Below, piece by piece: positions 1,086 through 22,800 of a stretch of DNA of 57,196 nt; position 1 is the stretch's first letter, and each line of letters begins with the position of its first letter. This stretch comes from a virus. The stretch spans positions 1 through 57,196 of IMG/VR virus record IMGVR_UViG_3300042691_013751; one strand, 5' to 3'. The position numbers and the translations under genes are program-made. The notes beneath the pieces are model-generated. The model did not search any database. It had not been told where the DNA came from and was given only the letters and a program-made list of their open reading frames with translations.

Positions 1086-1315
1086 ATCAAATTATCGAAT
1101 TGCTTGACCTTGAAAACGACATGACTCGAAACATGCTTAGTGCCGTAACCGCTGAGGACCCTGTCAATGGCATGTACTTTCAGTTCTTGGCTTTGCATTT
1201 GCAAGAAGAGATTATGAAAACCTTTTTGCAGATGTCTGAGCCTACGCGTCAAGAGTACGTCAACCTCATCAGCATGCTTACCATGGGAGAGACTTTGTAT
1301 GAGCAGTATGTTTGA
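1082..1315 (+). CDS. Hypothetical protein (77 aa)
   Basis: An acidic, helical-looking protein (MNQIIELLDLENDMTRNML...). I chose the ATG at 1082 because it overlaps the upstream stop (ATGA) and has GGAG at 1073-1076; a GTG at 1076 in frame lies too close to that site. No motif is recognised. It ends 17 bases inside the MazG-like gene and is presumably co-translated with it. Confidence 0.6.
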   Translation: MNQIIELLDLENDMTRNMLSAVTAEDPVNGMYFQFLALHLQEEIMKTFLQMSEPTRQEYVNLISMLTMGETLYEQYV

Positions 1316-1724
1316 ACAAGTTGGTGAGTTCCGCCGCACAATGGCTCTGCCCATGGGCACCACACCTGCATTGCTCACACCGGAGCAAACCAGCTACTTT
1401 GCTCGCTTCATCATGGAGGAGCTAAGTGAGTACCTTAAAGCCTGTGAAGAAGGCACGCTGGTGGACGCTGCCGACGCCCTTGTCGATCTTGTGTATGTCA
1501 CCTTAGGCTGTGCACATGCCATGGGCTTGCCATTCGATAAGCTTTTCGCCGTTGTGCACAAGGCCAATATGAACAAAGTGCCTGCCAATGGCTACATTCG
1601 CTCACTGCGAGGTTCACAATACGACGTGGTCAAGCCCGTAGGCTGGATGCCACCTGAAGATGAAATGCGCGCCATTCTTTTGAACGTAGCTCAAGACACG
1701 TGTTATAATCAAACCTCTAATTGA
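1299..1724 (+). CDS. MazG-like nucleotide pyrophosphohydrolase
   Basis: A 141-residue all-alpha NTP pyrophosphohydrolase candidate. The family cleaves (d)NTPs to (d)NMP plus pyrophosphate. The metal-binding pattern is visible: an EELSEYL segment (about residues 40-46), CEEG, then DAADALVDLVYVTLGCA, equivalent to the EExxE...ExxD arrangement of MazG/PRA-PH proteins. Lys and Asn residues in the following HKANMNK segment fit the substrate site. In T4 a dCTPase of analogous role prevents normal dCTP entering DNA; here it could trim dNTPs or (p)ppGpp. It starts inside the preceding gene with GGGAGAG at 1285-1291; Met4 at 1308 is an alternative start. Confidence 0.8.
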   Translation: MSSMFEQVGEFRRTMALPMGTTPALLTPEQTSYFARFIMEELSEYLKACEEGTLVDAADALVDLVYVTLGCAHAMGLPFDKLFAVVHKANMNKVPANGYIRSLRGSQYDVVKPVGWMPPEDEMRAILLNVAQDTCYNQTSN

Positions 1725-3323: not shown

Positions 3324-5186
3324 ATGCAGCCTATTTTTCTTGATTTTGAGACTATGGCCATTGGCCCTCGGCCTGATTACCCGCCCGTGCCTGTAGGCTT
3401 GGCCGTGTATGACCCCGAGGGCCAGTACCCAGATGGCTATCATGCTTTTGGCCACGCCGAAGGCAACAACACAACCAAAGAAGCTGTCAAAGCTATGATG
3501 GAGCTAATGTATGACAGCGGTCGAGCTCTCTGCTTTCATAATGCTATGTTTGACCTTGACGTGGCTGCGACTCATCTGGATATGCCCATCCCTGAGGACC
3601 CCACGCGTGTACACGATACTCTTATCCTTGCTTTTCTGCATGACCCTCATGTACAGTCTTTATCTCTAAAAGATCTGGTCGTTACCTGGGGCTTGGATAC
3701 CCCTAGCGAAAGAGATGAGCTGAAGGAATGGATCATTGCCAACGTCGAGGAAGCAAGACGTAAAAAGTCTACCTGGGGTGCTTACATCTCCCGTGGCCCA
3801 GTTGAATTGGTTGGCAAGTACGCCGCTGCAGACGTACGTCTTACCAGCAAGCTATATGACTACCTTAACGCCGCCGTGTTGCCTGCGCAGGCTGTGCCTT
3901 ACCTGCGTGAGATTGAGCTGATCCCAATGTTGCTTGAAAACTCACGTCTAGGCGTAAGGGTTGATCGCGATGGCTTACAAAAAGCCAAAGAGCAAGCAAT
4001 AGTAGATATTGAAAAGTGTAACGTTTGGGTACGCGCATTGTTAGGTTCTCCTGATTTGAATCTTGACAGCGATCGGCAGCTGGTCGATAGTATTTATCCC
4101 ACCGAGTACTGGGATAAAACAAATGGCTGGCCATCCACGGATAAGGGTTCCCCTAAGGCCGACAAGGAAACCTTTGAAGAGATCATTACGTATTTGCCAT
4201 TGCAAGGCGTATTGCGCTATCGCGCCAACCTATCAACCTGCCTGTCAACGTTCATTGAGCCTTGGCTTTTGACCAGCACAAAGACAGGCCGCATCTACAC
4301 CAATTGGAACTCCGTACGTGGTGAGCGGGGTGGTACGCGTACAGGCCGCCTAAGCTCTACGCCTAACTTTCAAAATGCACCTACACGTTATCCAAAGATT
4401 GTGGCGGCATCTGCTAATGCAAGCATGGGGCGTAATGAGATTGTGATGCCTGAAGGTCTTGACGTTGCGCCTCTGCCTCTCATTCGTAGCTTTCTGCTAG
4501 CCGATGAGGGTCACAAGTTGGTGGCATGCGACTTTAACGCTCAAGAGTTGCGCATCTTTGCTCACTTTGAAGGCGGTGGTCTGATGCAGCAGTATCAGGC
4601 CGATGCTAGAGCTGATCTGCATACCTACGCCGCCAAGCTAATGACTGAGGCTGCAGGACAAGAAGTTAGCCGCACCTACTCCAAAGGCGTGTCATTTGCT
4701 ATCTTGTATGGCGCTGGGCCAAAGAAAATCAGTGAAATGTTGGAGATCGACTACAACCTGTCCAAAACGTTAATGGATGCATATACCACGTCGGTGGCTC
4801 CAGGCCTCAAGACGATGCAGTCCACCATGCGTACAAGGTACAAATTGAACCAGCCATTAAAAACCATTGGCGGGCGTTTGATCAAGATGGAGCCGCCTAA
4901 GATCATCAACGGCAGACTCCGTGAGTTTGACTACAAAGGCGTTAACTTGCTCATTCAAGGCTCGGCAGCTGATCAGGCCAAAGCCGCCATGTTGTTGTAT
5001 CAAAAGACACGCAAAGGCAGCCGTCTGCTACTCAGCGTTCATGATGAGTTGGTTATCTCAGCGCCTGAAGAGTTCGCCGTACGTGAGGCAGAATGTCTTG
5101 TTGCAGCCATGTGCAACGCAATCGCCATGGATGTACCCATGGTCAGTGATTACAAAATTGGCAACACCTATCAGGAGGTCAAATGA
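3324..5186 (+). CDS. DNA polymerase, family A, with 3'-5' exonuclease
   Basis: 620 residues, replicative. The DEDDy exonuclease occupies about residues 1-185: Exo I FLDFET (residues 5-10), Exo II FHNAMFDLD near 71-79, Exo III YAAADVRL near 167-174. Polymerase motif A is ACDFNAQELRI (from about 401), motif B RTYSKGVSFAILYG (from about 450) and motif C SVHDELV (about 571-577). There is no 5' nuclease domain, as in T7-type phage polymerases. The residue equivalent to E. coli Phe762 is Phe (in VSFAILYG), a state associated with virulent phages in environmental surveys. The start is two bases after the previous stop; no strong ribosome binding site is needed if coupled. Confidence 0.95.
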   Translation: MQPIFLDFETMAIGPRPDYPPVPVGLAVYDPEGQYPDGYHAFGHAEGNNTTKEAVKAMMELMYDSGRALCFHNAMFDLDVAATHLDMPIPEDPTRVHDTLILAFLHDPHVQSLSLKDLVVTWGLDTPSERDELKEWIIANVEEARRKKSTWGAYISRGPVELVGKYAAADVRLTSKLYDYLNAAVLPAQAVPYLREIELIPMLLENSRLGVRVDRDGLQKAKEQAIVDIEKCNVWVRALLGSPDLNLDSDRQLVDSIYPTEYWDKTNGWPSTDKGSPKADKETFEEIITYLPLQGVLRYRANLSTCLSTFIEPWLLTSTKTGRIYTNWNSVRGERGGTRTGRLSSTPNFQNAPTRYPKIVAASANASMGRNEIVMPEGLDVAPLPLIRSFLLADEGHKLVACDFNAQELRIFAHFEGGGLMQQYQADARADLHTYAAKLMTEAAGQEVSRTYSKGVSFAILYGAGPKKISEMLEIDYNLSKTLMDAYTTSVAPGLKTMQSTMRTRYKLNQPLKTIGGRLIKMEPPKIINGRLREFDYKGVNLLIQGSAADQAKAAMLLYQKTRKGSRLLLSVHDELVISAPEEFAVREAECLVAAMCNAIAMDVPMVSDYKIGNTYQEVK

Positions 5187-6226: not shown

Positions 6227-6510
6227 AAGAAAAAGTTATCCTTGAACGCGATCTGGAACGCTACTTTTCAGCGGCATGTAAAAAGCGAGGCTTGCTAACG
6301 TTGAAGCTCAACGTCAGATTCGCAAGAGGCTGGCCCGATCGCATCGTTGTGCTGCCTAATGAAAAGGTGCTATGGGTTGAGCTGAAGCGCCCAGGCGGTA
6401 AAACATCGCCATTGCAAGACCTGCTGCATAACGACTTGCGCAAGCGCAAGCACATAGTGCATGTGATTGACTCTAAAGAAGGCATTGATTATGTACTGGG
6501 AACCTCATGA
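6220..6510 (+). CDS. VRR-NUC domain endonuclease
   Basis: 96 residues from the ATG at 6220. The VRR-NUC signature is present: an N-terminal E-RDLERYF helix, RFARGWPDRIVVLP, then VLWVELKRPGG and a final IDYVL strand. The catalytic residues of this PD-(D/E)XK branch are the D in GWPD and the E-x-K in VELKRP. Phage members are small stand-alone nucleases, some of which act on Holliday junctions or flaps. The ATG overlaps the Cas4-like stop by seven bases; GGCGGA at 6207-6212 may serve as ribosome binding site. An in-frame GTG at 6181 would add 13 residues but lies deep in the upstream gene. Confidence 0.85.
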   Translation: MVKEKVILERDLERYFSAACKKRGLLTLKLNVRFARGWPDRIVVLPNEKVLWVELKRPGGKTSPLQDLLHNDLRKRKHIVHVIDSKEGIDYVLGTS

Positions 6511-7888
6511 ATACCAAAAAGAAGCTGTAAAGTTTCTTGTTACGCATGGCTCAGGCTCATTGTGGCTTGACCCAGGCTTGGGTAAGACGGCCATTGTGCT
6601 ATCAGCATTTCGCATTCTTAAGAGTAAAGGTGTGGCAAAAAAGATGCTGGTCGTTGCGCCGCTGCGGCCTGTGCATGGCGTCTGGCCTGCCGAGGTTAAA
6701 AAGTGGGAGCAGTTTGAAGACTACTCCGTCGGCGTATTGCATGGTGGCAACAAGGCCAAGGTCTTAAAGCAACACCACGACATCTATGTCATTAACTTTG
6801 AAGGCCTGCAGTGGCTGTCCGCGCAACTGAATGGCAAGGACTGGCCTTTTCAAATCCTTACAATCGATGAGATCAGTTACTTAAAGAACACGCAAACGCA
6901 GCGCTTTAAGTGTCTGAAGCCTTTGCTAAACAAGTTCGATCGCCGTTGGGGTCTAACAGGCTCACCTGCACCAAATAGTTTGCTTGACATCTTTGGCCCA
7001 CAGTATATTGTGGACCAAGGCGCAACGTTTGGGCCGTTTGTGTCTCGCTTTCGCACTGAGTTCTTCTACCCTTCAGGCTACGGCGGGTATGAATGGAAGC
7101 TTCAGCATGATGGGGAGGCACGCATCCATGAAAAGCTGGAAGGCAAGGTTTTGCGAATGGCGGCTCTGGACCATCTGGACCTGCCAGAGCTAACGTATAA
7201 CGACATCAAGGTAGATCTACCTGCAGAAGCCAAAAAGATCTACAAGCACTTTGAGGACAACCTAACCATTGAGTTGAATAGTGGCAATGTTACAGCGGCC
7301 AACGCTGCCGTTGCTGTTATGAAAGGTCAGCAAATCGCCAATGGCGGTACGTATCTGGACGATGACGGCACGGGCAATGACAGGATTACTACAAAATTAC
7401 ATGACGCAAAAACTGAAGTTGCTCAAGAGCTGGTTGAAGAGCTGTCAGGCCAGCCCTGCATCATTGGGTACCACTTTCAGCACGATCTACAACGCCTGCA
7501 AGAGGCTTTTCCAAACGCTCCTGTTATTGGCTCTGGGGTTGTTGGCCCTAAGCTTGATGCTATTATTGCTGCTTGGAACGCGGGAGATATACCTGTCTTG
7601 CTGGCGCATCCTATGTCTGCAGGCCACGGCCTTAATCTACAAGGTGCAGGCCATGCTGTCATCTGGTACTCGCTGACTTGGAGTCTTGAAATCTACGAGC
7701 AGTTCATTCGTAGGCTCTGGCGTCAAGGTCAGAAGAACCACATTGTTGTGCATCACATCATTGCGCGAGACACCGTAGATGAGGCCATCCTCATGGCCGT
7801 GCAACGGAAGGACAAGACGCAACAAAAACTGCTTAATGCAGTACGTGATTACATCTCACGTGATACAATAGCAACTGTTGATATTTGA
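6491..7888 (+). CDS. SF2 (SNF2-like) DNA helicase
   Basis: 465 residues from the ATG at 6491, chosen because AAGAAGG lies at 6476-6482. Motif I (LDPGLGKTAIVL, about 26-37), motif II (TIDEIS, about 124-129; DEIS rather than DEAH), motif III (GLTGSPAPN) and motif VI (QFIRRLWRQGQ, near 404-414) are all in order. This is the architecture of phage SNF2-family ATPases that unwind or remodel DNA during replication and recombination. It overlaps the VRR-NUC frame by 20 bases. No Zn finger or fused nuclease is seen. It is the last gene before the promoter at about 7858. Confidence 0.9.
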   Translation: MYWEPHEYQKEAVKFLVTHGSGSLWLDPGLGKTAIVLSAFRILKSKGVAKKMLVVAPLRPVHGVWPAEVKKWEQFEDYSVGVLHGGNKAKVLKQHHDIYVINFEGLQWLSAQLNGKDWPFQILTIDEISYLKNTQTQRFKCLKPLLNKFDRRWGLTGSPAPNSLLDIFGPQYIVDQGATFGPFVSRFRTEFFYPSGYGGYEWKLQHDGEARIHEKLEGKVLRMAALDHLDLPELTYNDIKVDLPAEAKKIYKHFEDNLTIELNSGNVTAANAAVAVMKGQQIANGGTYLDDDGTGNDRITTKLHDAKTEVAQELVEELSGQPCIIGYHFQHDLQRLQEAFPNAPVIGSGVVGPKLDAIIAAWNAGDIPVLLAHPMSAGHGLNLQGAGHAVIWYSLTWSLEIYEQFIRRLWRQGQKNHIVVHHIIARDTVDEAILMAVQRKDKTQQKLLNAVRDYISRDTIATVDI

Positions 7889-7944: not shown

Positions 7945-8157
7945 ATGTCTGACACAAAGAAAACACGCCAGCGCGCCAACAAAAAAGCAATCATTACTGT
8001 CGCCGTTATTGCCAACCCTAAACGCCCCAACACGCTTGCATGCGAGCGCTTTGAGCTGTACAAGGACGGCATGACTGTGGCAGAATACGTTGCTGCAGGT
8101 GGGCGCACAGGCGATGTCTTGCACGACGCTGCTCAAGGCTACATCACACTTACTTAA
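7945..8157 (+). CDS. Small hypothetical protein (70 aa)
   Basis: A 70-residue protein with a basic N-terminus (SDTKKTRQRANKKA), a hydrophobic strand (IITVAVIAN), then ERFELYKDGMTVAEYVAAGG. The second half reads like a small alpha/beta domain. I recognise no family. An AAGGA ribosome binding site is present (7933-7937), and it ends two bases before the glycosyltransferase-like gene, so the two are probably co-expressed. Confidence 0.6.
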   Translation: MSDTKKTRQRANKKAIITVAVIANPKRPNTLACERFELYKDGMTVAEYVAAGGRTGDVLHDAAQGYITLT

Positions 8158-8159
8158 CC

Positions 8160-9056
8160 ATGAAAATTCTCATCACCGGTGTCACCGAGACCCATAACAA
8201 CCATCCACAACGTGCAAGCTCTACGAAGTTTGTATCTATCCCTGAGCTAATGCGCGATGCCTACATCGCCTTAGGCCATGAAGTAGAGCACGGCCCTGTG
8301 AATGCAACTATGGACCTGTCAAAGTACGACAAAGTCTTTTTGTATGTCTACCCACTGGATAAAAACGCAGTGCATCCAGAAGGCGCCAAGCGTGTCCTTC
8401 GTGAACGCATGGATGCTTATATTTGTCTGGATGATTGGGCATTCCAAAAAATCCTCCCTTCCTGGGAAGACGTGATTGCCAAAGAAGACTTTGCAGACCA
8501 TCAGTGGATTGCGCCCCTTTTTCCGTGGGGTGACATTAAGCTGATGAATCTACCGGTTGATGTGATTCTTCCATGGGACCCGTCGCCTTTGTATGAAATG
8601 CCTCCAAGCTATCAAATGGCTTGGGGCAAACGCAAAACTGAGTGGTACAACGCATCACTTTCTAAGGACGCGCATGACTGGGCGACAGCACAAAACCTTA
8701 CATGGCCAATTCACAGTGTCGGAGGCAAATCTCTCGGACAGCCGCGTATTCTTGAAAGTGACGTTGTCTGGCAGTACGGCTCTTACAAAGGAGTTCTATG
8801 TCCGACCTACGCCCATGCCGGATGCGGATGGTGGCGAGTTAGATATCTGCACGCTGCATTTACCGGCTGCGTTCTTGGCGGGGATCCTCAAGAGCTTGGC
8901 GTAATCGATTCATCATACAGCTATACGCCTCGTGAGCTTGAGCGTATGGATGATGGGCAATTGGAACTCATTGCAGCCCAGCAATACGTGGCATTGACTT
9001 CGCAGATTGCAACGCTCAAGCAAACGCAGCTTAAACTTGAAAGCTTTCTTACATGA
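8160..9056 (+). CDS. Glycosyltransferase-like protein (GT-B type suspected)
   Basis: 298 residues. It begins with a Rossmann-type strand (MKILITGVTETHNN) and an ALGHEVEHGP segment like the acceptor domain of GT-B enzymes. The C-terminal half has YGSYKGV, then GCGWWRVRYLHAAFTGCVL followed by GGDPQEL, resembling the donor-site 'G-x-R-x2-x2-A-x2-G' loop. The family match is by pattern only, and I cannot name a substrate. It overlaps the dNMP kinase gene by four bases, with a thymidylate-synthase-like gene next, so a role in glycosylating modified bases is an attractive inference. It could instead be an unrelated phage protein with a Rossmann fold. Confidence 0.45.
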   Translation: MKILITGVTETHNNHPQRASSTKFVSIPELMRDAYIALGHEVEHGPVNATMDLSKYDKVFLYVYPLDKNAVHPEGAKRVLRERMDAYICLDDWAFQKILPSWEDVIAKEDFADHQWIAPLFPWGDIKLMNLPVDVILPWDPSPLYEMPPSYQMAWGKRKTEWYNASLSKDAHDWATAQNLTWPIHSVGGKSLGQPRILESDVVWQYGSYKGVLCPTYAHAGCGWWRVRYLHAAFTGCVLGGDPQELGVIDSSYSYTPRELERMDDGQLELIAAQQYVALTSQIATLKQTQLKLESFLT

Positions 9057-9988
9057 TCATTATTTTAGAAGGCCCTGACGGTGGGGGTAAGACAACCCTT
9101 GCCGAGTCCTTGCGGCAGTACCTGCAAGGCGATCGCATGACCCATGTCGTAAAGCACGGGCCATATAAAGGTGTAGGCACCGAGGACTTGTGCCGCATCT
9201 ACTTTCGCGCAATGACCCAGGCCTTAACCTATGATGACCACGTCATTATGGATAGGTCATGGCTGTCGGAGCCTATCTATGGCGAGGTGTACCGCAATGG
9301 CGCAAATCGCGTTGATATGCCACGCCGTCGTATGCTGGAACGTGTTGCCTTGTCACGAGGTGCCGTTGTTGTGCATTGCCAACCTGACCTTGAGGTTTGC
9401 ATGGAGACATTCAAGTCACGCCTTGATGTTGAGTACCTTGACAACACTGCGCAGCTTACCGCTGTGTACCACGGCTATGAAAGCCTTGGCTTACACACCT
9501 GCCTGCCCGTCCTGCATTACGACTACAAGTACGATACGCTAGAAAAGTTGCTTCCACGGCTGGTGAGTAGCTCCTCACAAAATAACTTTTCTGGTGGCGG
9601 TGCTTTTAAGGTTGGCAACATCCTGATGCTTTGCGATAAAGGCCCACGTACCAATGTGCGTGCATCCGCTGCCGTTGTACCCTTCATCAACTTCTTGGAC
9701 AATGACGGACCTAGCCGCATGTTGGCCGAGGCATTGGAGCGTGAAGGCATTGCCGAGGACAAGCTCTACTGGGTTAACACGCAAAACTACCAAGGTGTGC
9801 CTACAGACGTCAGTATCGTAAAAGACCTGAAGCCTTCACGCGTCTTTGCGTTAGGCAACAACGCATACACGTGGGCGTTAAACAACAACGTACAGGCGCA
9901 AAAGCTGCCGCCTCCGTTGTACCACATGCAAAACTTTCCCAATCAACCTTACCACATCACAGAGGCAGACTATGGACATGATGATTAA
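9053..9988 (+). CDS. dNMP (thymidylate-type) kinase fused to a UDG-like C-terminal domain
   Basis: 311 residues in two parts. Residues 1-170 are a P-loop kinase: EGPDGGGKTT (6-15), DRSW (67-70, the DRS/DRW-like motif of thymidylate kinases) and a Lid-like arginine helix. Residues 183-305 form a separate domain: VGNILMLCDKGPRTN, YWVNTQ near 239-244, VFALGNN (264-270), and PPPLYHMQNF near the end. The last two resemble the 'ALG...A' strand and the HP-containing loop of uracil-DNA-glycosylase-fold proteins, but catalytic residues are not evident. The kinase would raise dNMPs to dNDPs. It lies between the GT-like and thymidylate-synthase-like genes and overlaps both. Confidence 0.75.
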   Translation: MIIILEGPDGGGKTTLAESLRQYLQGDRMTHVVKHGPYKGVGTEDLCRIYFRAMTQALTYDDHVIMDRSWLSEPIYGEVYRNGANRVDMPRRRMLERVALSRGAVVVHCQPDLEVCMETFKSRLDVEYLDNTAQLTAVYHGYESLGLHTCLPVLHYDYKYDTLEKLLPRLVSSSSQNNFSGGGAFKVGNILMLCDKGPRTNVRASAAVVPFINFLDNDGPSRMLAEALEREGIAEDKLYWVNTQNYQGVPTDVSIVKDLKPSRVFALGNNAYTWALNNNVQAQKLPPPLYHMQNFPNQPYHITEADYGHDD

Positions 9989-10754
9989 GAACGAGCCTGA
10001 GTTGATCAACCTGTACAGGTGTCTGCAGCAGCATGGCCAATTGACAAGCCCACGCGGCGAGCAATGCCTTGAGATCGAAAACTTTAGCTACACGGTCAAT
10101 CCTTTTGTGCGCTTCAACGCGTTTGAAGGTCGCAACTTCAATGTGAAGTACCTTAAGCGCGAGATGGCCTGGTACATCAAAGCCGACCCACGTGACTTAT
10201 CAATTGCTGAGCATGCTGCGCAATGGGGCAAGATCGTTGCCAACGGCAAATTGAATAGCAACTACGGCAGCTATTGGTTTGGCAAGCATGGTGTACGACA
10301 TATTGTGAGTCTTTTGCAAAGTGACCCCATGTCACGCCGTGCAGTCATCCCCATGTACGGCACTGATGTAGACCACATGGACATTGAGGCCAAGGACGTG
10401 CCTTGCACATTGGCCATTGAATTCAGAATTCGTAATGGCTACCTCAACGCACGTGCTATCATGCGCAGCCAAGACATTTTGTGGGGCATGGCCAATGACT
10501 TGCCTACGTTCTCGTTCTTGCAAGAGATTGTTGCCAACATCCTTGGCGTTGAGATGGGCACACTTACCGTATCTGTGGGGTCGTTCCACGTGTACGAGTC
10601 ACGCATGCCAATGTTCAACAGCATCTTGGCTGCAAGTAACTACGTAGGAATTGAAGACAAGCCACCTCGCATCAACCGCTATGAGGCTCATTTGCTGATG
10701 GACAAGGGTATTAACCCTACTTTTAGCTTTGCAAAGTGGTTACTTAACGTCTAA
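9972..10754 (+). CDS. Thymidylate synthase family enzyme, possibly dCMP hydroxymethylase
   Basis: 260 residues. ThyA-fold motifs: SRRAVIP (121-127), catalytic Cys145 in DVPCTL, NARAIMRSQDILWG (159-172) and VGSFHVYESR (202-211, with the conserved His and Tyr). The enzyme adds a one-carbon unit from methylene-tetrahydrofolate to a pyrimidine nucleotide. Aligning RSQDILWGMAND with ThyA's RS-x-D-x3-G-x3-N puts Asp176 where ThyA has the dUMP-selecting Asn177. Asp at this place is characteristic of dCMP hydroxymethylases such as T4 gp42. Asn175 next to it leaves some alignment doubt. The PCT around the cysteine is also atypical (PCH in ThyA). Start is the first of three close ATGs, overlapping the kinase by 17 bases. 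Confidence 0.75.
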   Translation: MDMMIKNEPELINLYRCLQQHGQLTSPRGEQCLEIENFSYTVNPFVRFNAFEGRNFNVKYLKREMAWYIKADPRDLSIAEHAAQWGKIVANGKLNSNYGSYWFGKHGVRHIVSLLQSDPMSRRAVIPMYGTDVDHMDIEAKDVPCTLAIEFRIRNGYLNARAIMRSQDILWGMANDLPTFSFLQEIVANILGVEMGTLTVSVGSFHVYESRMPMFNSILAASNYVGIEDKPPRINRYEAHLLMDKGINPTFSFAKWLLNV

Positions 10755-10812
10755 ACGTGTTATAATTAACACGTGGATCCCCACAACCAACTGACTATTG
10801 AAAGGAATACAC
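10755..10812 (+). promoter_or_regulatory. Palindromic promoter/operator and conserved leader
   Basis: A perfect inverted repeat, ACGTGTTA (10755-10762), TAAT, TAACACGT (10767-10774), sits over the -10 TATAAT (10761-10766), which has an extended TGT. Such a palindrome over a -10 is a typical operator layout. Leader copy CTGACTATTGAAAGGAATAC (10791-10810) leads straight into the ATG at 10813. Confidence 0.65.
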
Positions 10813-11532
10813 ATGCAAAAACGCATTTTTTGGACAGATGCAGAACGCAAAATCGTATTGGATCGCGCGCTAGGCTACATGCAAAGTGGCGGGTATTCAG
10901 AGCTTGAGGCCTTGCGTCGTGCTCAAGAATTTGCGCTAAGCACCGCAAGGCAGCGTACTTTTGCGTCATACTCTGCGGCGCTGCCTGACATCAAAGCACT
11001 TAAGGCCCTTGCACTCTCAGTCATTAAAAAGCCAGCGATGGTGGAATCACCTACAGTTGTGACTCCACAACCTCCAGTGCCACCAGATGCACAACCAAGC
11101 ATGCCTGCTGATAGCATTGATGGATTGGTTGCAAACATTGCGCAGCTCATTGCCGCGCAGTTGGCTACGGCCATCAAGGCTGCAATGCAAAATACAGTGC
11201 AAGAGCTTGAGCACACCTACAGTTTGCCAAAGCATAATCCTACGTACGCAATTGATCACGTGCAAAAGAAGCGTGTAATCGTCATTGGCTTGCTAAATGA
11301 TCAGGTTCACGCTATTACGCGTGAGTTTGGCGAGGACTTCAACATCAAATGCATTGACACCGACAGAGCCATGGGGATGTCTCCACCGGATGCTGATGCG
11401 TACCTGCTGATGAAGAACTTTATCAACCATCCGCTGTACCATAAGTACCAGGCTTTCCCGAACCATGTGCTTATTGATGGCGGGATGTCCACATTGCGTA
11501 TGTGGTTTAACACGAAAGGCAAAGCGCTATGA
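10813..11532 (+). CDS. DUF2325-like protein with N-terminal helical domain
   Basis: 239 residues in three parts. Residues 1-60 are helical and basic (FWTDAERKIVLDRAL ... ALRRAQEFAL), perhaps DNA-binding. A Pro/Thr-rich linker follows (about 75-100). The C-terminal 80 residues read KKRVIVIGLLNDQ, then DADAYLLMKNFINHPLYHKY and a GGMSTLR end, like DUF2325 (a small Rossmann-like fold of unknown function). Alone behind a palindromic promoter, it may be a regulator acting on its own operator; this is inference. It overlaps the next small frame by four bases. Confidence 0.6.
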   Translation: MQKRIFWTDAERKIVLDRALGYMQSGGYSELEALRRAQEFALSTARQRTFASYSAALPDIKALKALALSVIKKPAMVESPTVVTPQPPVPPDAQPSMPADSIDGLVANIAQLIAAQLATAIKAAMQNTVQELEHTYSLPKHNPTYAIDHVQKKRVIVIGLLNDQVHAITREFGEDFNIKCIDTDRAMGMSPPDADAYLLMKNFINHPLYHKYQAFPNHVLIDGGMSTLRMWFNTKGKAL

Positions 11533-15335: not shown

Positions 15336-18300
15336 TCAGCCTTTCATGTATTCCAGAGGGGACTTAGCGGGTGGCGGAATTTTGCCAGATGGCGCTGAGC
15401 GTTTGTGTTTTCTGATCTCTTCACGCATTTTATCCAAAATACGAGCTCCAGCCTTATTTGAGCCATTGCCCAGTGCAGAAACAATGTCAGCATCGAATAC
15501 GTACTCGCCATCAGCCAGCATTGCAGGGATGTCATCCGATTGACCATCACCTGCGCCTTGTACGTAGTTGCCTGTCTTACCGGTAATAAACTCAGGCACA
15601 TGCTCAGAAACAGGCAATGCGCCAGATGTAGTACCACCTTTTGCAAAGCCTGACAAGTTGCCTGAATTGATCATCTTTAAGCCTGCCGACATAAGCGCGT
15701 CCCCACCTGTAGGCATTGCTTTTGATAGCGCAGACACAGGTTTTGACTTTGCTTGGTCTTCAGCAGGCGCTTGTGTTGCAGTCTCTGTCTTTTGCGCAGC
15801 TGCAGTGTTTTGCGGTGTTGCCCTACCCGCCAAAATGCTAAGCAATTGCGGATCAATGTTAGCTATTTGCGGGTAAAGTTGCTGTAAGTCTTGCATGATT
15901 TTGATCTCAGGTCTTTGTCCGGCAGCCAGCATGTTTGCGGTTAGGTTGCCAGGCAACGCGCCGCTTGTACTGCTTGGCGCAGCGTATGACAACAATGCGC
16001 CAGGTGGCTTGCTAGGCGTTGTAGGCGTTGTAGGCGCTGTTGGCGTTGTGGGCGTTGTGGGCGTTGTGGGCGTTGCTGGGGTCTCGGGACCAGCTCCGGG
16101 ACCAGCTCCGGGGCCAGTTCCAGGACCAGCTCCGGGGCCAGTTCCAGGACCAGTTCCAGGACCAGCTCCGGGGCCAGTTCCAGGACCAACTCCGGGACCA
16201 GTTCCGGGGCCAACTCCGGGGCCAGTTCCGGGGCCAACTCCGGGGCCAGCTCCAGGACCAACTCCGGGGCCAGCTCCAGGACCAACTCCGGGGCCAGTTA
16301 TAGTATCTAAGGCGCCTGTTCCAGTACCTGTACCTGTTTCTGAGTTGTTGGCAACTGCAATGTCGCCGCTTATTTCAGGACCAGCAGCTCCTCCGCCAAT
16401 TTCACCACCTCCAGTGGTGGCAGTGTTATTTGCCGCCGTGTTGCTGCCCGAGGCTCCACCACTAAGAATTTTTTCAGTTTGGCCTCGGTCAAACCAAATA
16501 GGCTCTCCGTTGGGGTCGTTTTTATCCACAACAAAGCTTGTGCCATCTGCGCGGGCAATTAACGTAAACCCTTCATTTTCAAAAACCTGAGAGCCGCCTT
16601 CTTCGGATACCAAGCTGAAGTTTCCAGGAAACAGACCGCCTCCGAATGTCCCAGTCACACTTCCAAAAACAGGCCGTCCCAAACCGTCAGTTGGGGGATT
16701 AGCCGACTCACCATAGCCAACCAAGGCCATGATTTCATTGTTCGACAACCCGGAATCGCTGCTTGTAATTGTGTCGGGGTTAATCCCAATATCTTCCCAA
16801 AAGTTACCGCCTGAAGTAGTTGCAGTTGACCCGGTTGTTGCGCCTGTGGACGCCCCAGTGTCAGACCCGCCAGCTACAGCAGTGCCAGTAAACGATTGAG
16901 CGTATGGCGAGGTTGCAAATGCGTTGATGAAGTCTTGAGCAATTTTAGGCGTTGCCCCGTCTACTGAACCCGACCGGTTCATTTCAATAGCAAAAGGCGC
17001 GCCCATGTACGAGCCATCTGAGGAGAAATACAAAACTCGGGAGTTGCTGGGGTCGGCTACGCGATACCCGCCATCATCTGTACGAGTAATCCCCGTGTTC
17101 TCTCCAACCGACGCGCCTAAGTAACCAGCAATGCCTTGCTTGATGTCTGCAAACTGCGCAGCATTGCCACCGCCGCCCGCATCAGTTAGTGCGCCAGAAC
17201 CAGATGACGCAAATAGCGTATCTGCGCCTTGCGTAATAGGCAAGGCGCCTGTAATACCTGCAACATCTTGGTCTGTTAAAGAACCTGCGTCTGCAAATTG
17301 GCCATCATTGGTCACAAGACCTGCGTCTACAGTAGACAGCGCCCCTGCACCATTCCCTTGCGAGGTTGGCTTCATATCCACAACATCAGGCAATGCGCCG
17401 CTACCACTGTTCTTGGTGCCTGCCTTCACCGACTTATCCAAATTACTCATTGCGTTAGTAATCTTGAATGGGTCGCCACTTTCAACTGCCTGACGAAGAT
17501 TTTCCGCAGAAGCCACCAACTTAAGATTGGGGCTGTTGGTCATTTCTCCAACTGTGGCAAGGGCTGCAGCGTAGTCTCCAGTCTTTATAAGCTGCGCTAC
17601 TTTGGCCGTGTTTATCACGTCGCCCATCTTGATGCCATTGCCCATGTCTTTGTTTATCAGCTCCTTGCCCATGTCGGTTTGCATAAGAGCTGTACCCAAA
17701 GCAACGACGTTGCCTTTGTCAAGTGCGTTCAGCACCTGCGCACCAGTTTTGGCTTTATTCAGTGTCTCCACCGTAGACGCTGTGAACCCAAGGTCTCCGC
17801 TAAAACCCACCGCAGCAGTTAGACCGGAGACAATTGCAGATCCCCAATCACCCTTATTTGCCGCATTGATCGCGTTACCCGCGGCCACATACGGCATTAA
17901 CGCTGGGTTCGCCATAGCAACCATAGAAATTGCTGGCTTTAGGACCCCCTCACGAAACTGCAACCAATCGCTTTGATTGCGAGTTGTGTACGGGATCGGT
18001 GTGCCGTCTTCTGCAAAATTTAGGTTGTAGGTGAGCCTGCTGCCGGAGTTGGTTCCAGATGCAACCCGACCCCAATCAGGCAACGCTTCGCCGGTTTTCT
18101 TGTTGTAATACTCAGTTATTTGCCCAACTTCGGGGCCGTTGTAACCTTCCGTGACAACATCGACTCTTCGCTGGCCCAAGTCATAAATGGAGCCAACACC
18201 ATTCTCGGCAAGGCGCAGGGCAAAGTCCATCGCCGCAGCTTCTTTTGAACCCAAGTTACCGGCAGACCAATTGTCCCCAGTAACTGTTTGCTGCGCAAGT

Positions 18301-19622
18301 AGTTCTTGCCACAAATTCCGAGCATTGGCTGCCATCGTAGGGTCTTGCGTAGCCAGTGCATCGAATGCACCTGCCAAAGACTTGGGGTCGCCTGTTTTAA
18401 GCGTTTCCAGGTATTTGCCGTAGTCCCAAATATTCGTTGATGCTGCTGCGCCTGCTGGGGCATTTGCTGCTGCTGCTGCTGCTGCTGCGCCTGCTGGGGC
18501 ATAATACTGACTTGTCAAGCCAGACTGCTTGAAGGCCTCTTCTGGAGGCATGCCAGCGGTGATGAACTGCTTGTACTTCTCGTAGGCCAGAGGGTCAAAA
18601 GTATTGGCAGCCTTTTTCTGCGCCGAAGCGTAATCAGCTTCACGAGAAGCAGCAGTGCTAGGGCCAGTTACAACCTTTGCATCTGGGTCATACACAGGCG
18701 TGGTGTTTGCCTTAAACTTGTCGTAGGCCCCGGGTTGGTTTACCGAGAAGCCAACCACACCCAGAAGATTGCCGTTTTTGACCCAGTTGTTGAGCTGATT
18801 GAATGATTCTCCAGTTGCCTGAGACAAATCGCCTAAAGTGACGCCATGCTGCTCCATGAGTTGGCGCACTTTGCCGGGGTCGTCCTTGTTTGCATCCCAT
18901 GCAGCGCGAATGCTTGCAAGCTGATCCACAGGACGGTTTGACGTCTCCAAGGTGTTCAGGTATTGAAACGTGTCTGCAGGCTTTGCTGCTGCGTAGTCTG
19001 TTACAAACTTGCCTTGGGGGATATAGTTCTGCGTAATCCACTGGTTAACCGGGGCATACTCGGACCCGACCTCGCCATTGACGCCGGTTATAACTGAATT
19101 GTCGCCAGTTGCTTGTCGGTAAGCAGCAAGGCCTGCACGGTAGTCTTCTTGGGATAAATCTTCAAGCCTTGTTGGGGCGAGAGCACCAATGCTGCGGTTT
19201 TCTTTCTGGCCGTAGTTGAAGTAGTGCCGCTCGGCCTCAGCTTGTGTGTCAATGCCTGCCGCGCCTAAGTCTTTGTTGGCACCCACATAGCGCTGCCAAT
19301 CAAAGTTTTGAGGCATCACATTGGGGTTATACCATTGGCCCGACATCCAGTCATCAGCAGGTGCGGCGGCTGGCGCAGATGATGACGCAGGGGCTGACTC
19401 AGGAGCAGAAGTCTGAGCCGCCTGCAAAGCGCCAATGTTCCTGTTCTCGGTTATGCCAAAGTTCTGGTAATGGCGCAGGGCCTCTTCTTCGGTGTCAATG
19501 CCAGCAGCACCCAAGTCGGTGTTGATTTTCAGATAGTTCTGATAATCAAAACCCTCAGGCGCTTTGGTGGGGTCGTAGGACAGGCCTGACATCCAGTCAT
19601 CGGTAGGGTTTGTGTTTGCCAT
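15336..19622 (-). CDS. Very large modular virion protein (1428 aa)
   Basis: The N-terminus carries a duplicated module, DWMSG ... Y-x3-N-x-DLGAAGID ... HYxNxGxxENRxIGAL, spaced by about 75 residues; this 'DL...HY...G..E.R' repeat also occurs in secreted bacterial proteins. A long mixed middle follows, including a Gly/Ala-rich hydrophobic part (MVAMANPALMPYVAAGNAIN). Then come a GPG-x tandem tract, a TPT tract and a conserved end (EYVFDADIVSALGNGS ... KSPLEYMKG). FAKGG appears before the end, as in other structural proteins here. Likely a DNA-ejection or tail protein. ATGA overlap with the upstream gene supports the start. Confidence 0.65.
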   Translation of the reverse strand: MANTNPTDDWMSGLSYDPTKAPEGFDYQNYLKINTDLGAAGIDTEEEALRHYQNFGITENRNIGALQAAQTSAPESAPASSSAPAAAPADDWMSGQWYNPNVMPQNFDWQRYVGANKDLGAAGIDTQAEAERHYFNYGQKENRSIGALAPTRLEDLSQEDYRAGLAAYRQATGDNSVITGVNGEVGSEYAPVNQWITQNYIPQGKFVTDYAAAKPADTFQYLNTLETSNRPVDQLASIRAAWDANKDDPGKVRQLMEQHGVTLGDLSQATGESFNQLNNWVKNGNLLGVVGFSVNQPGAYDKFKANTTPVYDPDAKVVTGPSTAASREADYASAQKKAANTFDPLAYEKYKQFITAGMPPEEAFKQSGLTSQYYAPAGAAAAAAAANAPAGAAASTNIWDYGKYLETLKTGDPKSLAGAFDALATQDPTMAANARNLWQELLAQQTVTGDNWSAGNLGSKEAAAMDFALRLAENGVGSIYDLGQRRVDVVTEGYNGPEVGQITEYYNKKTGEALPDWGRVASGTNSGSRLTYNLNFAEDGTPIPYTTRNQSDWLQFREGVLKPAISMVAMANPALMPYVAAGNAINAANKGDWGSAIVSGLTAAVGFSGDLGFTASTVETLNKAKTGAQVLNALDKGNVVALGTALMQTDMGKELINKDMGNGIKMGDVINTAKVAQLIKTGDYAAALATVGEMTNSPNLKLVASAENLRQAVESGDPFKITNAMSNLDKSVKAGTKNSGSGALPDVVDMKPTSQGNGAGALSTVDAGLVTNDGQFADAGSLTDQDVAGITGALPITQGADTLFASSGSGALTDAGGGGNAAQFADIKQGIAGYLGASVGENTGITRTDDGGYRVADPSNSRVLYFSSDGSYMGAPFAIEMNRSGSVDGATPKIAQDFINAFATSPYAQSFTGTAVAGGSDTGASTGATTGSTATTSGGNFWEDIGINPDTITSSDSGLSNNEIMALVGYGESANPPTDGLGRPVFGSVTGTFGGGLFPGNFSLVSEEGGSQVFENEGFTLIARADGTSFVVDKNDPNGEPIWFDRGQTEKILSGGASGSNTAANNTATTGGGEIGGGAAGPEISGDIAVANNSETGTGTGTGALDTITGPGVGPGAGPGVGPGAGPGVGPGTGPGVGPGTGPGVGPGTGPGAGPGTGPGTGPGAGPGTGPGAGPGAGPETPATPTTPTTPTTPTAPTTPTTPSKPPGALLSYAAPSSTSGALPGNLTANMLAAGQRPEIKIMQDLQQLYPQIANIDPQLLSILAGRATPQNTAAAQKTETATQAPAEDQAKSKPVSALSKAMPTGGDALMSAGLKMINSGNLSGFAKGGTTSGALPVSEHVPEFITGKTGNYVQGAGDGQSDDIPAMLADGEYVFDADIVSALGNGSNKAGARILDKMREEIRKHKRSAPSGKIPPPAKSPLEYMKG
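16084..16299. repeat. Tandem 12-base repeat encoding Gly-Pro tract
   Basis: About 18 copies of a degenerate 12-base unit of the type GGNCCAGNTCCR, read on the - strand as GPG(V/A/T)-type repeats inside the 1428-residue protein. It is followed on the same strand by a (TPT)n tract at about 16019-16079. It should behave as a flexible, extended linker. Unit variants alternate, suggesting expansion by slippage. Confidence 0.85.
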
Positions 19623-19885
19623 CAGTTATCACCATTCATTACGTTCAATAGGGCAGCAGCCCAATCTTGCCAGTTCTCATAGTTATAAGGGCTTGGGATG
19701 CCTTGATTTGTAAACACATCAATTGCCAAAAGGCCAACAGCCCAACTCTTCCATTCGATTTCACTGCCAGGTATTCCGAGTTGCTGTGCTGCATATTGCT
19801 CACAAAGCAAGCAAGCCCACTGCTCAAACTCCATGTGCCTTGGGTCATAAACAAGAGGCGATGGGACATCAAGTGTTGTAGCCAC
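19622..19885 (-). CDS. Small conserved structural-region protein (87 aa)
   Basis: An acidic, Trp-rich protein: PLVYDPRHMEFEQWACLLCEQ, EWKSWAVGLLAIDVF and NWQDWAAALL. Three W-centred helices are spaced evenly, a pattern I associate with small proteins next to nozzle genes in related phages. The start is uncertain: a GTG at 19885 keeps the conserved 'SPLxYDP' segment and overlaps the nozzle stop, whereas the first ATG is at 19834. The stop overlaps the next ATG (ATGA at 19621-19624 on the - strand). Function unknown, perhaps a tail accessory. Confidence 0.55.
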   Translation of the reverse strand: MATTLDVPSPLVYDPRHMEFEQWACLLCEQYAAQQLGIPGSEIEWKSWAVGLLAIDVFTNQGIPSPYNYENWQDWAAALLNVMNGDN

Positions 19886-22800
19886 GAGTATCACCAAAGT
19901 CTGCGCTAACAATAACCTTACCCATTTGATAGTCCCCTCCGGCAACGTTGGACACGAACTTCAATCTTAGCTCGCGCCGTTGTTCACGCAGGTCGATTTT
20001 AGTTGTTCCTGGCTCAAAAAGATAGGGGCCAGTTGTTTTATCTTCAGCCTGAGCATAGGGGCGGCCCGTCACATACAGCTCCATTTCGCCTTGCTGAATA
20101 AAGTCAGGCTCCAAGCGCTCAAGATGCAGCCAGCGATTTTCCCCCATAGGTGATGGCTGTGATGGTCCACCTGCCACCCACCCAAGGTCGCTTGTCTCAA
20201 AGGAGCTACGTATAGCATTTGATGCGGTGCCTTTGACTTCATCTGTGCCAATCTCATGCTGCCACAAACAAACAAAATCTGTCAATTGGTTGACAGTAAA
20301 CGCAAGGTTGGAGCCCCCAGGGACAGCAGCAGTCAGGACGTCGCCCACGGTGTAGCCTTGGCCTTTGTTGTCCACCAAGACGCTGGTGGCGATGCCCCCG
20401 GCGATGGTGATGGTGGCTGTTGCGCCAGACCCTGTGCCCCCAGTCAGGGGCTGGAACAGGTAGGACCCGTTGGTGTAGCCCGAGCCTGCATTGGTGATCG
20501 ACAGCTCGTTGATGCCGCCGACTGCGTCAACATCCGAAGAGGCGTTGATCGGGAAGCGGAACACCTGCGAGAAGTAACCGGCAGACCGACGGGCACCATC
20601 AACTTGCCCAGCGTCGTACCAGACGTTCTCACGCACGTTGTAGATGATGGCGTCATTGCACTCTTCAGCATCGCCACGAGGGTAGTACCACCAAATCTCA
20701 CCGAACCGAGGAACTTTGGTTGCCCAAACTTTTTGGCGCTGGCTGTAGTTCAAGTTGTCAAAGAACCAGTTCTGGTTCATCCCGTTGGGGATTTCTTTGA
20801 CCACACCGTTGTAGAGCAAAAACCGGTCCGTGCCAATCCAGTAGTAGATGCCGTCGTACTCGATGACGCACTGAGAGGACAGGATAGACGACTGCGAGGA
20901 GATGATGTCGTAGCGCCAGTATTGTGCAGGGGTTCCGGCGCCACCAATGTAGGACATACGTACCAAACTGTCCAAGCTCCAAAACAGGCCAGAAGGCGAG
21001 TTGGAGCCGCCACGAACCGGTAGGCCCTTAACAATTTTGCCTGTAGCGACGTTGACCTCGTTGGCATCTGGAGAGTTCCAGTCCGTTGGGTCGCCGGCGG
21101 CGCAGTTCTTCAAAAGACCTGCGTCGCCATAAACAACAACGTAGGGGTGCAAAGAAACTACACCGCCACTGACTGAGATGACGTCCCCAGTTGGGTTTGC
21201 GCCACCTGTGTCTTTTAGAGGCGCCACAGAGCTTCCTGAAACGTTGCCGTACAAGACAGGGGTGTCTTGCGTGCTATCAATCTCAACTAGGTTATGCCCG
21301 GGGTGCGCCAAAAGCAGATTGCTTTCGCCAAACACATTGTACAGAGAGTCAAATTGCCAAAGATTCTCATCACTTGCGGTAAAGCTTGAACCCACAGATG
21401 CGACTTGAATCGAAAACCCAGAGCTGGCAAACACAGTGGCGACTTCCACAGAAAAGCCTGCGCTTTGCGTAACCGAAATAACCCTGAATGCAAAGCCGCT
21501 GCTGGACATGACACCCGTCACCGGCACTGCAAAACCACTTGCATTACCCAGAGTTGCCACCGTAAAGGTAAAGCCAGCGCTGGCATACACAGTGCCAACC
21601 GGGATAGAGAAGCCAGAGCTTGTGACCACCGTTGCGACAGGCACAGCAAAACCGGTACTGGCGAAGACCGCAGAGACTGGCACAACAAACCCAGATCCAG
21701 TGCCGCCAATCGAGGTGGAGTTGGCCGACATGATGTTGCCGACGACAAAGCCACGCCCACGGCTCGTGATGGTCACGGTGGTAACCACCCCGCCAGCGAC
21801 CACAATCGTGGCCTGAGCGCCTGTTCCAGAGCCGCCAATGAGGTTAACTGTGGTGTAGGTGCCATTGGTGTATCCAGCGCCTCCAGTAATTGTTCCAAGC
21901 GTTTGGATGCCTCGCCCAATGATAGACGCACTGCAGGACAAAGAATCTGCTACAGTATAGTCATTGCCTTTGCTGGTAACGGTGACCGAGGCGACTGCAT
22001 TACTTGCAACCACAATGGTTGCCACTGCACCAGTACCAGTTCCTCCGGTCAGGGGAACACCTGTAAATGTCCCGTCTGTGTAGTTTGACCCTGCAGTGAT
22101 CGTGCCAAGAGTTCCAATACCATTGGTAAAGCCCCCAAGGTTTGTGGCGGCTGCGCTCATCGAGTCAGCAACGGTGTAGCCGACACCCCGAGAGGTCATT
22201 GTCACAGCCGTCACGTCGCCACCAACACCGACGGTGATGGTCGCCTGAGCGCCAGAGCCGGTTCCGCCTGTCAGGGGGACGTTGGTGTAGGTGCCGGGGC
22301 CGTAGTTCGAGCCACCAACCAGAGAGCCTGTTGTCAAGGTGTTGATGCCGTTGCCCAATGTGGCCGCAGCGGCACTGATTGCGTCAGCCACCGTATACCC
22401 CGAGCCAGCTGATGTGATGGTCACGGTGCTCACGGCGTTGCTTGAAACAACAATGGTGGCCTTGGCACCTGTCCCTGTGCCGCCAGTCAAAGTCACGTCG
22501 GTGTATGTGCCATTGGTGTAATTGGAGCCACCAGTGATGGCAGAGGTTGTGGCAATACCATTTGTCGAGCCTGCAAGAGTGGCACTCAGACTATCGCCTA
22601 CTGCGTACCCGACACCTTTTTCAACCAACTGAAAAGAAGAAACAATGCCGTTTGCAACAATAAGATTTGCAGTTGCGCCGGTTCCAGAGCCTCCGGTCAA
22701 TGGCGTATCGCGGTACACACCTATCGTGTAAAGTGATGTGCTGGCAACAGTTTGGCTATTGTTGATGTTGTACGTTCCAACGCCGCCTGAGCCACTACCA

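Follow-up and report, generated by a model that had tools for sequence, protein, structure and literature searches.

The complete virus record IMGVR_UViG_3300042691_013751 of IMG/VR (57,196 bases, hereafter the window) contains three overlapping genes at positions 8160 to 10754 which, together with a pyrophosphohydrolase gene further upstream (1299-1724), probably replace the cytosine of the phage DNA by glycosylated 5-hydroxymethylcytosine. Families, folds, residues, gene order and co-occurrence were observed directly, and from these we infer every substrate, the sugar and the base present in virions. In the pathway that we propose, the pyrophosphohydrolase would convert deoxycytidine triphosphate (dCTP) to deoxycytidine monophosphate (dCMP), keeping unmodified dCTP out of the phage DNA. 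A thymidylate-synthase-family enzyme (9972-10754) would put a hydroxymethyl group on C5 of dCMP with methylene-tetrahydrofolate, the kinase domain of a fusion protein (9053-9988) would phosphorylate the resulting hydroxymethyl-dCMP, and host enzymes would complete the triphosphate for insertion by the phage polymerase. A transferase (8160-9056) would then transfer a sugar from a host nucleotide-sugar donor to the base hydroxyl in DNA. The second domain of the kinase protein, which has a uracil-glycosylase fold, would bind the modified pyrimidine instead of excising it.

The transferase (298 residues), the kinase fusion (311 residues) and the thymidylate-synthase-family enzyme (260 residues) are encoded by open reading frames (ORFs) on the + strand, with overlaps of 4 nucleotides (ATGA) between the first two and 17 nucleotides between the last two. 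In a viral collection, this one-strand order of transferase, kinase and dCMP enzyme is kept in all 76 distinct loci that have all three genes, and among the loci with enough flank around the transferase, none was missing the kinase or the dCMP enzyme. The grouping is therefore not a matter of chance. A preliminary description of the window had placed a glycosyltransferase-like gene, a dNMP kinase and a thymidylate-synthase-family enzyme in one overlapping operon, accompanied by a MazG-like pyrophosphohydrolase; the operon is borne out, as are the family assignments of its synthase-like enzyme and of the pyrophosphohydrolase.

The thymidylate-synthase-family enzyme matches PF00303 (expectation value (E) 7.5e-20), and its C145 aligns with the catalytic C146 of E. 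coli. When its profile is compared with solved structures, the MilA CMP hydroxymethylase (5b6d) and the T4 dCMP hydroxymethylase (1b49) rank before any deoxyuridine monophosphate (dUMP) synthase. We aligned the enzyme with 19 phage enzymes and with E. coli ThyA, the sequence of which was entered by hand as reference. Asp176 and Thr146 of the window enzyme occupy E. coli positions 177 and 147, and the same Asp177 and Thr147 are present in gp42 of T4, Aes012 and FBB1 and in the enzymes of Xp15, AXL3, the Gordonia phages, DSL-LC01, MW202657 and RB69 (ORF048). By contrast, five phage synthases and E. coli ThyA, which are of the dUMP type, have Asn177 and His147. The PW916 enzyme, recovered in part only, has Asp177. 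Within the window enzyme's own family, Cys145, Thr146 and Asp176 are constant in all readable members. In the MetaGPA study, positions 177 and 147 distinguish phage contigs with modified cytosine from those without (PMC8670742), and this meaning of the signature suggests that the substrate of the window enzyme is very likely dCMP.

The pyrophosphohydrolase matches PF01503 (E 7.8e-18; PRA-PH/MazG superfamily) and has the conserved acidic residues (EE, E and D). PF01503 pyrophosphohydrolases are among the domains that co-occur on cytosine-modified contigs according to MetaGPA (PMC8670742). The profile of its family matches nucleoside triphosphate pyrophosphohydrolases (NTP-PPases) of AXL3 (9.8e-27), Xp15 (2.2e-23), PW916 (2.6e-23), Acinetobacter MD-2021a (1.5e-17) and ctUtU524 (6e-11), and gave no clear match to the NTP-PPases of BlueNGold or DSL-LC01. 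Given that all five matched NTP-PPases are encoded near a dCMP-type enzyme, the window protein is a good candidate for removing dCTP, with the genomic context pointing to dCTP as its substrate. A dCMP deaminase (PF00383) was not found in the window or in eight relatives; a deaminase gene lies beside the dCMP-type enzyme in carbamoyltransferase and AXL3-type modules.

Which modified base would be made can be approached via a tree in which the window enzyme groups with those of Xp15 and Acinetobacter MD-2021a (support 91/89) and then with T4 gp42 (85/84). An NSNYG stretch and an ND pair are common to the window enzyme and T4 gp42, and the residues at the Asp169, Gly173 and Tyr209 positions of T4 gp42 are kept. 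The alternative is glycosylated 5-hydroxycytosine, in which the sugar is attached at C5 via an oxygen, as in RB69; 9972-10754 would then be a 5-hydroxy-dCMP synthase. According to a recent re-reading, RB69 DNA contains arabinosyl-hydroxycytosine, and a thymidylate-synthase homologue produces it (PMC13390438). We took ORF048 to be this homologue, since no other dCMP-type member was found in RB69; it is the sole 5-hydroxy-type enzyme in our comparison. That ORF048 also has Asp177 and Thr147 is in line with this alternative, as is the placement of the dCMP-type enzymes of the Gordonia phages, DSL-LC01 and MW202657, all of which have transferase relatives, on the RB69 side of the tree. However, at the positions of Asp169, Gly173 and Tyr209 ORF048 carries Asn, Val and Phe, and it forms a very long branch elsewhere in the same tree, whereas the window enzyme keeps the gp42 residues and is placed with Xp15 and T4 gp42. 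We consider 5-hydroxycytosine unlikely; the base is probably 5-hydroxymethylcytosine, with tree and residues favouring 5-hydroxymethyl-dCMP as the enzyme's product.

For the transferase, neither Pfam nor NCBIfam gave a match, and the one matching PHROG has no functional label. The term "glycosyltransferase-like" in the preliminary description could therefore not have come from family libraries, and it is the fold that sustains it. The AlphaFold2 model (predicted local distance difference test (pLDDT) 79.2, predicted template modelling score (pTM) 0.82; low-confidence loops at residues 13-23 and 189-194) has a GT-B architecture with two Rossmann-like domains. Both Foldseek (E 9.5e-6) and VIA-align (1qkj; Z score 18.2, root-mean-square deviation (rmsd) 3.6, 281 of 298 residues aligned) rank T4 beta-glucosyltransferase first among the solved structures. 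In VIA-align, SenB is tied with it (Z 17.4, within 1 of the top), followed by T4 alpha-glucosyltransferase (Z 15.8) and many further GT-B proteins. The comparison with GT-B enzymes that had been proposed earlier thus returned a transferase fold, and the model supports placing the protein among the GT-B-fold glycosyltransferases, in a phage family that is uncharacterised. In sequence comparisons, the window has no match to PF09198 or PF11440, the families of the T4 beta- and alpha-glucosyltransferases (the T4 controls match both, PF09198 at 1e-99), a profile alignment of the transferase family to T4 beta-glucosyltransferase showed no link, and the profile matched no plausible transferase among solved structures. 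Five residues (E199, W225, R226, E245, Q275) do not vary across 13 transferase proteins, and D92-W93 are nearly invariant; judging from its place after a first-domain strand, D92 may be the counterpart of Asp100, the catalytic residue in T4 beta-glucosyltransferase.

Transferase relatives are present in nine sampled phages (DSL-LC01, MW202657, GodonK, GMA2, BlueNGold, Aes012, FBB1, F86 and C48C1). Eight of these carry a PF00303 enzyme, and in all of the eight but F86 one such enzyme is of the dCMP type. The T4-like phages Aes012 and FBB1 have gp42 and lack both T4 glucosyltransferase families (the T4 positive control matches both); their relatives of the window transferase are the natural candidate for these missing glucosyltransferases. 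From the operon and the co-occurrence, we propose that the acceptor is a modified base in DNA. It could also be that hydroxymethylcytosine is made while the transferase glycosylates something other than DNA, such as host surface sugars or a virion protein. The GT-B fold is common to transferases of many acceptors, and the tied SenB is a non-DNA enzyme. In addition, some relatives lie beside uridine diphosphate (UDP)-galactopyranose mutase, which is best known from cell-surface synthesis, and the C48C1 relative occurs without a PF00303 enzyme. Nevertheless, the window family always adjoins the kinase and the dCMP enzyme, and the candidacy in Aes012 and FBB1 also argues for DNA, making a non-DNA acceptor quite improbable in our view.

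The dNMP kinase of the preliminary description is present as a P-loop nucleoside monophosphate kinase domain (about residues 1-174), but the description overlooked that this domain is fused to one with a uracil-DNA-glycosylase fold (about residues 175-311). The kinase domain matches PHROG 761 (thymidylate kinase; E 7e-20), with a weak Pfam match below the cut-off, and YorR (3kb2) by Foldseek (E 4.8e-5); thymidylate kinases score Z values of about 9.5, and the Walker A motif reads GPDGGGKTT. The nature of the C-terminal domain was revealed only by the fold search, with 4zbx at Z 10.5 (rmsd 2.8, 126 residues aligned; the model has several low-confidence stretches) and UdgX at about Z 10 with 20% identity. 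A tblastn search of annotated phages with the isolated domain gave no match, and the AXL3 version gave nothing credible against solved structures by sequence. The catalytic motifs of uracil-DNA glycosylase families 4 and X read GE..G and HP. In the window kinase family, LCDKG and PPPLYH occur instead and are conserved in 27 sequences, with F211 and N242 invariant; by sequence alignment only, the AXL3-type relatives (AXL3 and PW916) have a GED-like motif and HPQ in their places. Given that the usual uracil-glycosylase catalytic residues have apparently been replaced in the window kinase family, we propose that the C-terminal domain binds a modified pyrimidine rather than cutting it. The same two-domain fusion is found in AXL3, PW916 and ctUtU524 (whole-length profile matches) and, recognised by eye, in DSL-LC01, each time adjoining a dCMP-type enzyme. 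A literature search of titles and abstracts found nothing on a fusion of a phage kinase with a uracil glycosylase, which is weak evidence. The fold of the C-terminal domain is also that of Brig1, with which hosts defend themselves by removing alpha-glucosyl-hydroxymethylcytosine (PMC11078745); a functional link between the two is speculation.

With regard to the sugar, glucose is an assumption, because a UDP-galactopyranose mutase gene adjoins the transferase relative in four of the nine phages; the mutase was sought in the window and not found. In those four phages, the arrangement hints at a furanose donor. We tentatively raise, as one joint and rather doubtful proposition, that the sugar on the phage cytosine is not glucose and possibly a furanose such as galactofuranose, that the transferases form a family of DNA glycosyltransferases, as yet without a name, in T4-like, actinobacterial and small phages, and that the uracil-glycosylase fold captured by the kinase has given up base excision and recognises the modified nucleotide or shields it from base-excising defences such as Brig1.

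AXL3 shares three of the four window components (pyrophosphohydrolase, kinase fusion and dCMP-type enzyme). Of 37 restriction enzymes, only 2 cut its DNA, and the sites of both consist of A/T only (PMC7504290). Since AXL3 has no transferase relative, this resistance supports a modified G or C base and not a sugar. Several observations weigh against glycosylated 5-hydroxymethylcytosine. The tree favours hydroxymethyl over hydroxy with moderate support only, no sequence relation between the transferase and the T4 glucosyltransferases could be detected, and the GT-B fold does not reveal the acceptor. Moreover, the C48C1 genome has a transferase relative without any PF00303 enzyme, and in F86, whose genome has a QueC-like gene, the PF00303 enzyme is of the dUMP type only, so that the transferase family may not act on cytosine everywhere. 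An ordinary supply of deoxythymidine triphosphate (dTTP) by a thymidylate synthase and a thymidylate kinase, with no modified base, would fit the library names of the two proteins and the like annotation by the AXL3 authors (PMC7504290), but we rejected it as very improbable on the Asp/Thr signature (Asp177 not Asn, Thr147 not His, in all readable members), the closest solved relatives being hydroxymethylases, a linked glycosyltransferase having no role there and AXL3 DNA resisting restriction enzymes.

Separately, the transferase relative of the Vibrio phage F86 is partial and lies among QueC-like and radical S-adenosylmethionine genes, where a different base may be the target.

The features of the locus are listed in the table below. 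The SNF2 helicase neighbours the locus in 113 fetched loci, and the pyrophosphohydrolase is often found further upstream in related loci. Family-library searches (Pfam and PHROG) gave no family for the small ORF preceding the transferase, and Pfam and NCBIfam gave no match for the gene downstream of the dCMP-type enzyme.

Table. Proposed cytosine-modification genes of the window and their neighbours
Feature	Coordinates	Strand	Basis
MazG/PRA-PH-type nucleotide pyrophosphohydrolase, proposed dCTP pyrophosphatase	1299..1724	+	PF01503; substrate proposed
PolA-type DNA polymerase, proposed modified-nucleotide inserter	3324..5186	+	Reading of the translation; role proposed
SNF2-type helicase, conserved upstream neighbour, outside the proposed pathway	6467..7888	+	PF00176, E 1.4e-19
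Small conserved ORF (70 residues) directly 5' of the transferase	7945..8157	+	In 110 fetched loci
GT-B-fold glycosyltransferase, proposed DNA (modified-cytosine) glycosyltransferase	8160..9056	+	AlphaFold2 model, fold matches
Kinase domain (residues about 1-174), proposed modified-dCMP kinase	9053..9574	+	PHROG 761, folds
Fused C-terminal domain (residues about 175-311), family-4 uracil-DNA glycosylase/UdgX fold	9575..9985	+	Structure match
Thymidylate-synthase-family enzyme, dCMP type, proposed dCMP 5-hydroxymethylase	9972..10754	+	PF00303, residues, tree
Neighbouring gene downstream, kept in most relatives	10798..11532	+	87 fetched loci, 35-100% identity

Elsewhere in the window, a large structural gene (19869-24431) has many near-repeats of the glycine-rich motif GGTGTGA-ATITV, and a large gene on the - strand (15336-19622) has a low-complexity GPGxGPG and TPTTP stretch. 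Over the first 25 kb, DNA comparison with annotated phages gave a single sizeable match, at 20556-20894, with 76% to the "phage stabilization protein" of MW202545 (Manatee Spring).

If the proposed pathway is true, the DNA of this phage would be hidden from bacterial restriction enzymes, and such phages are predicted to be refractory to restriction enzymes, CRISPR tools and nanopore reads. The transferase would represent an uncharacterised family of DNA-modifying glycosyltransferases that is tied to T4 beta-glucosyltransferase by fold only, and the residues combined with the operon would provide a flag for cytosine-modified phages in metagenomes. The kinase fusion would join nucleotide activation to a base-removing fold, one that bacteria use in Brig1 against sugar-bearing cytosines.

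A close parallel is T4, where the gp56 dCTPase, gp42, the gp1 kinase and the beta- and alpha-glucosyltransferases provide the same set of steps as proposed for the window. In their active sites, the window enzyme and T4 gp42 agree in the placement of C, T and D, and the transferase shares the fold of T4 beta-glucosyltransferase. Each step of the T4-like pathway put forward in the preliminary description has support from families, residues and folds, while glucose, the certainty of a hydroxymethyl group and membership of each enzyme in its T4 family do not receive such support. Unlike in T4, the window genes are compact in a genome of 57 kb, the transferase falls outside PF09198 and PF11440, and the kinase carries a fused uracil-glycosylase-fold domain.

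The nearest dCMP-type enzymes (about 36-40% identity) and related pyrophosphohydrolases are found in Xp15 and Acinetobacter MD-2021a, which are of the 5-carbamoyloxymethylcytosine kind described by MetaGPA. Here the tailoring enzyme is a carbamoyltransferase, a kind shown to act on hydroxymethylcytosine (PMC8670742), whereas the window has a glycosyltransferase. Both also encode a small P-loop protein directly 5' of the dCMP-type enzyme, but without the fused domain, and both carry the deaminase gene that the window lacks. AXL3, PW916 and ctUtU524 resemble the window in having the kinase fusion beside a dCMP-type enzyme together with a related pyrophosphohydrolase. They differ in that the profile search found no transferase relative, in that their dCMP-type enzyme belongs to another clade and in the GED-like and HPQ motifs of the fused domain; AXL3 and PW916 in addition have a methyltransferase gene.

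Like the window, RB69 has a small gene for a thymidylate-kinase-like protein close to that of its dCMP-type thymidylate-synthase homologue, and its transferase is predicted to be GT-B (PMC6024577), although our transferase profile did not find it. In contrast to what we propose for the window, the RB69 product is 5-hydroxy-dCMP, and the phage probably synthesises its activated pentose itself. Finally, Brig1 and the C-terminal domain of the kinase belong to the same structural superfamily, and both have the Sulfolobus tokodaii family-4 enzyme as their best match (PMC11078745). Brig1 serves in bacterial defence, whereas the window domain is part of a phage kinase protein and the usual catalytic residues have apparently been replaced.

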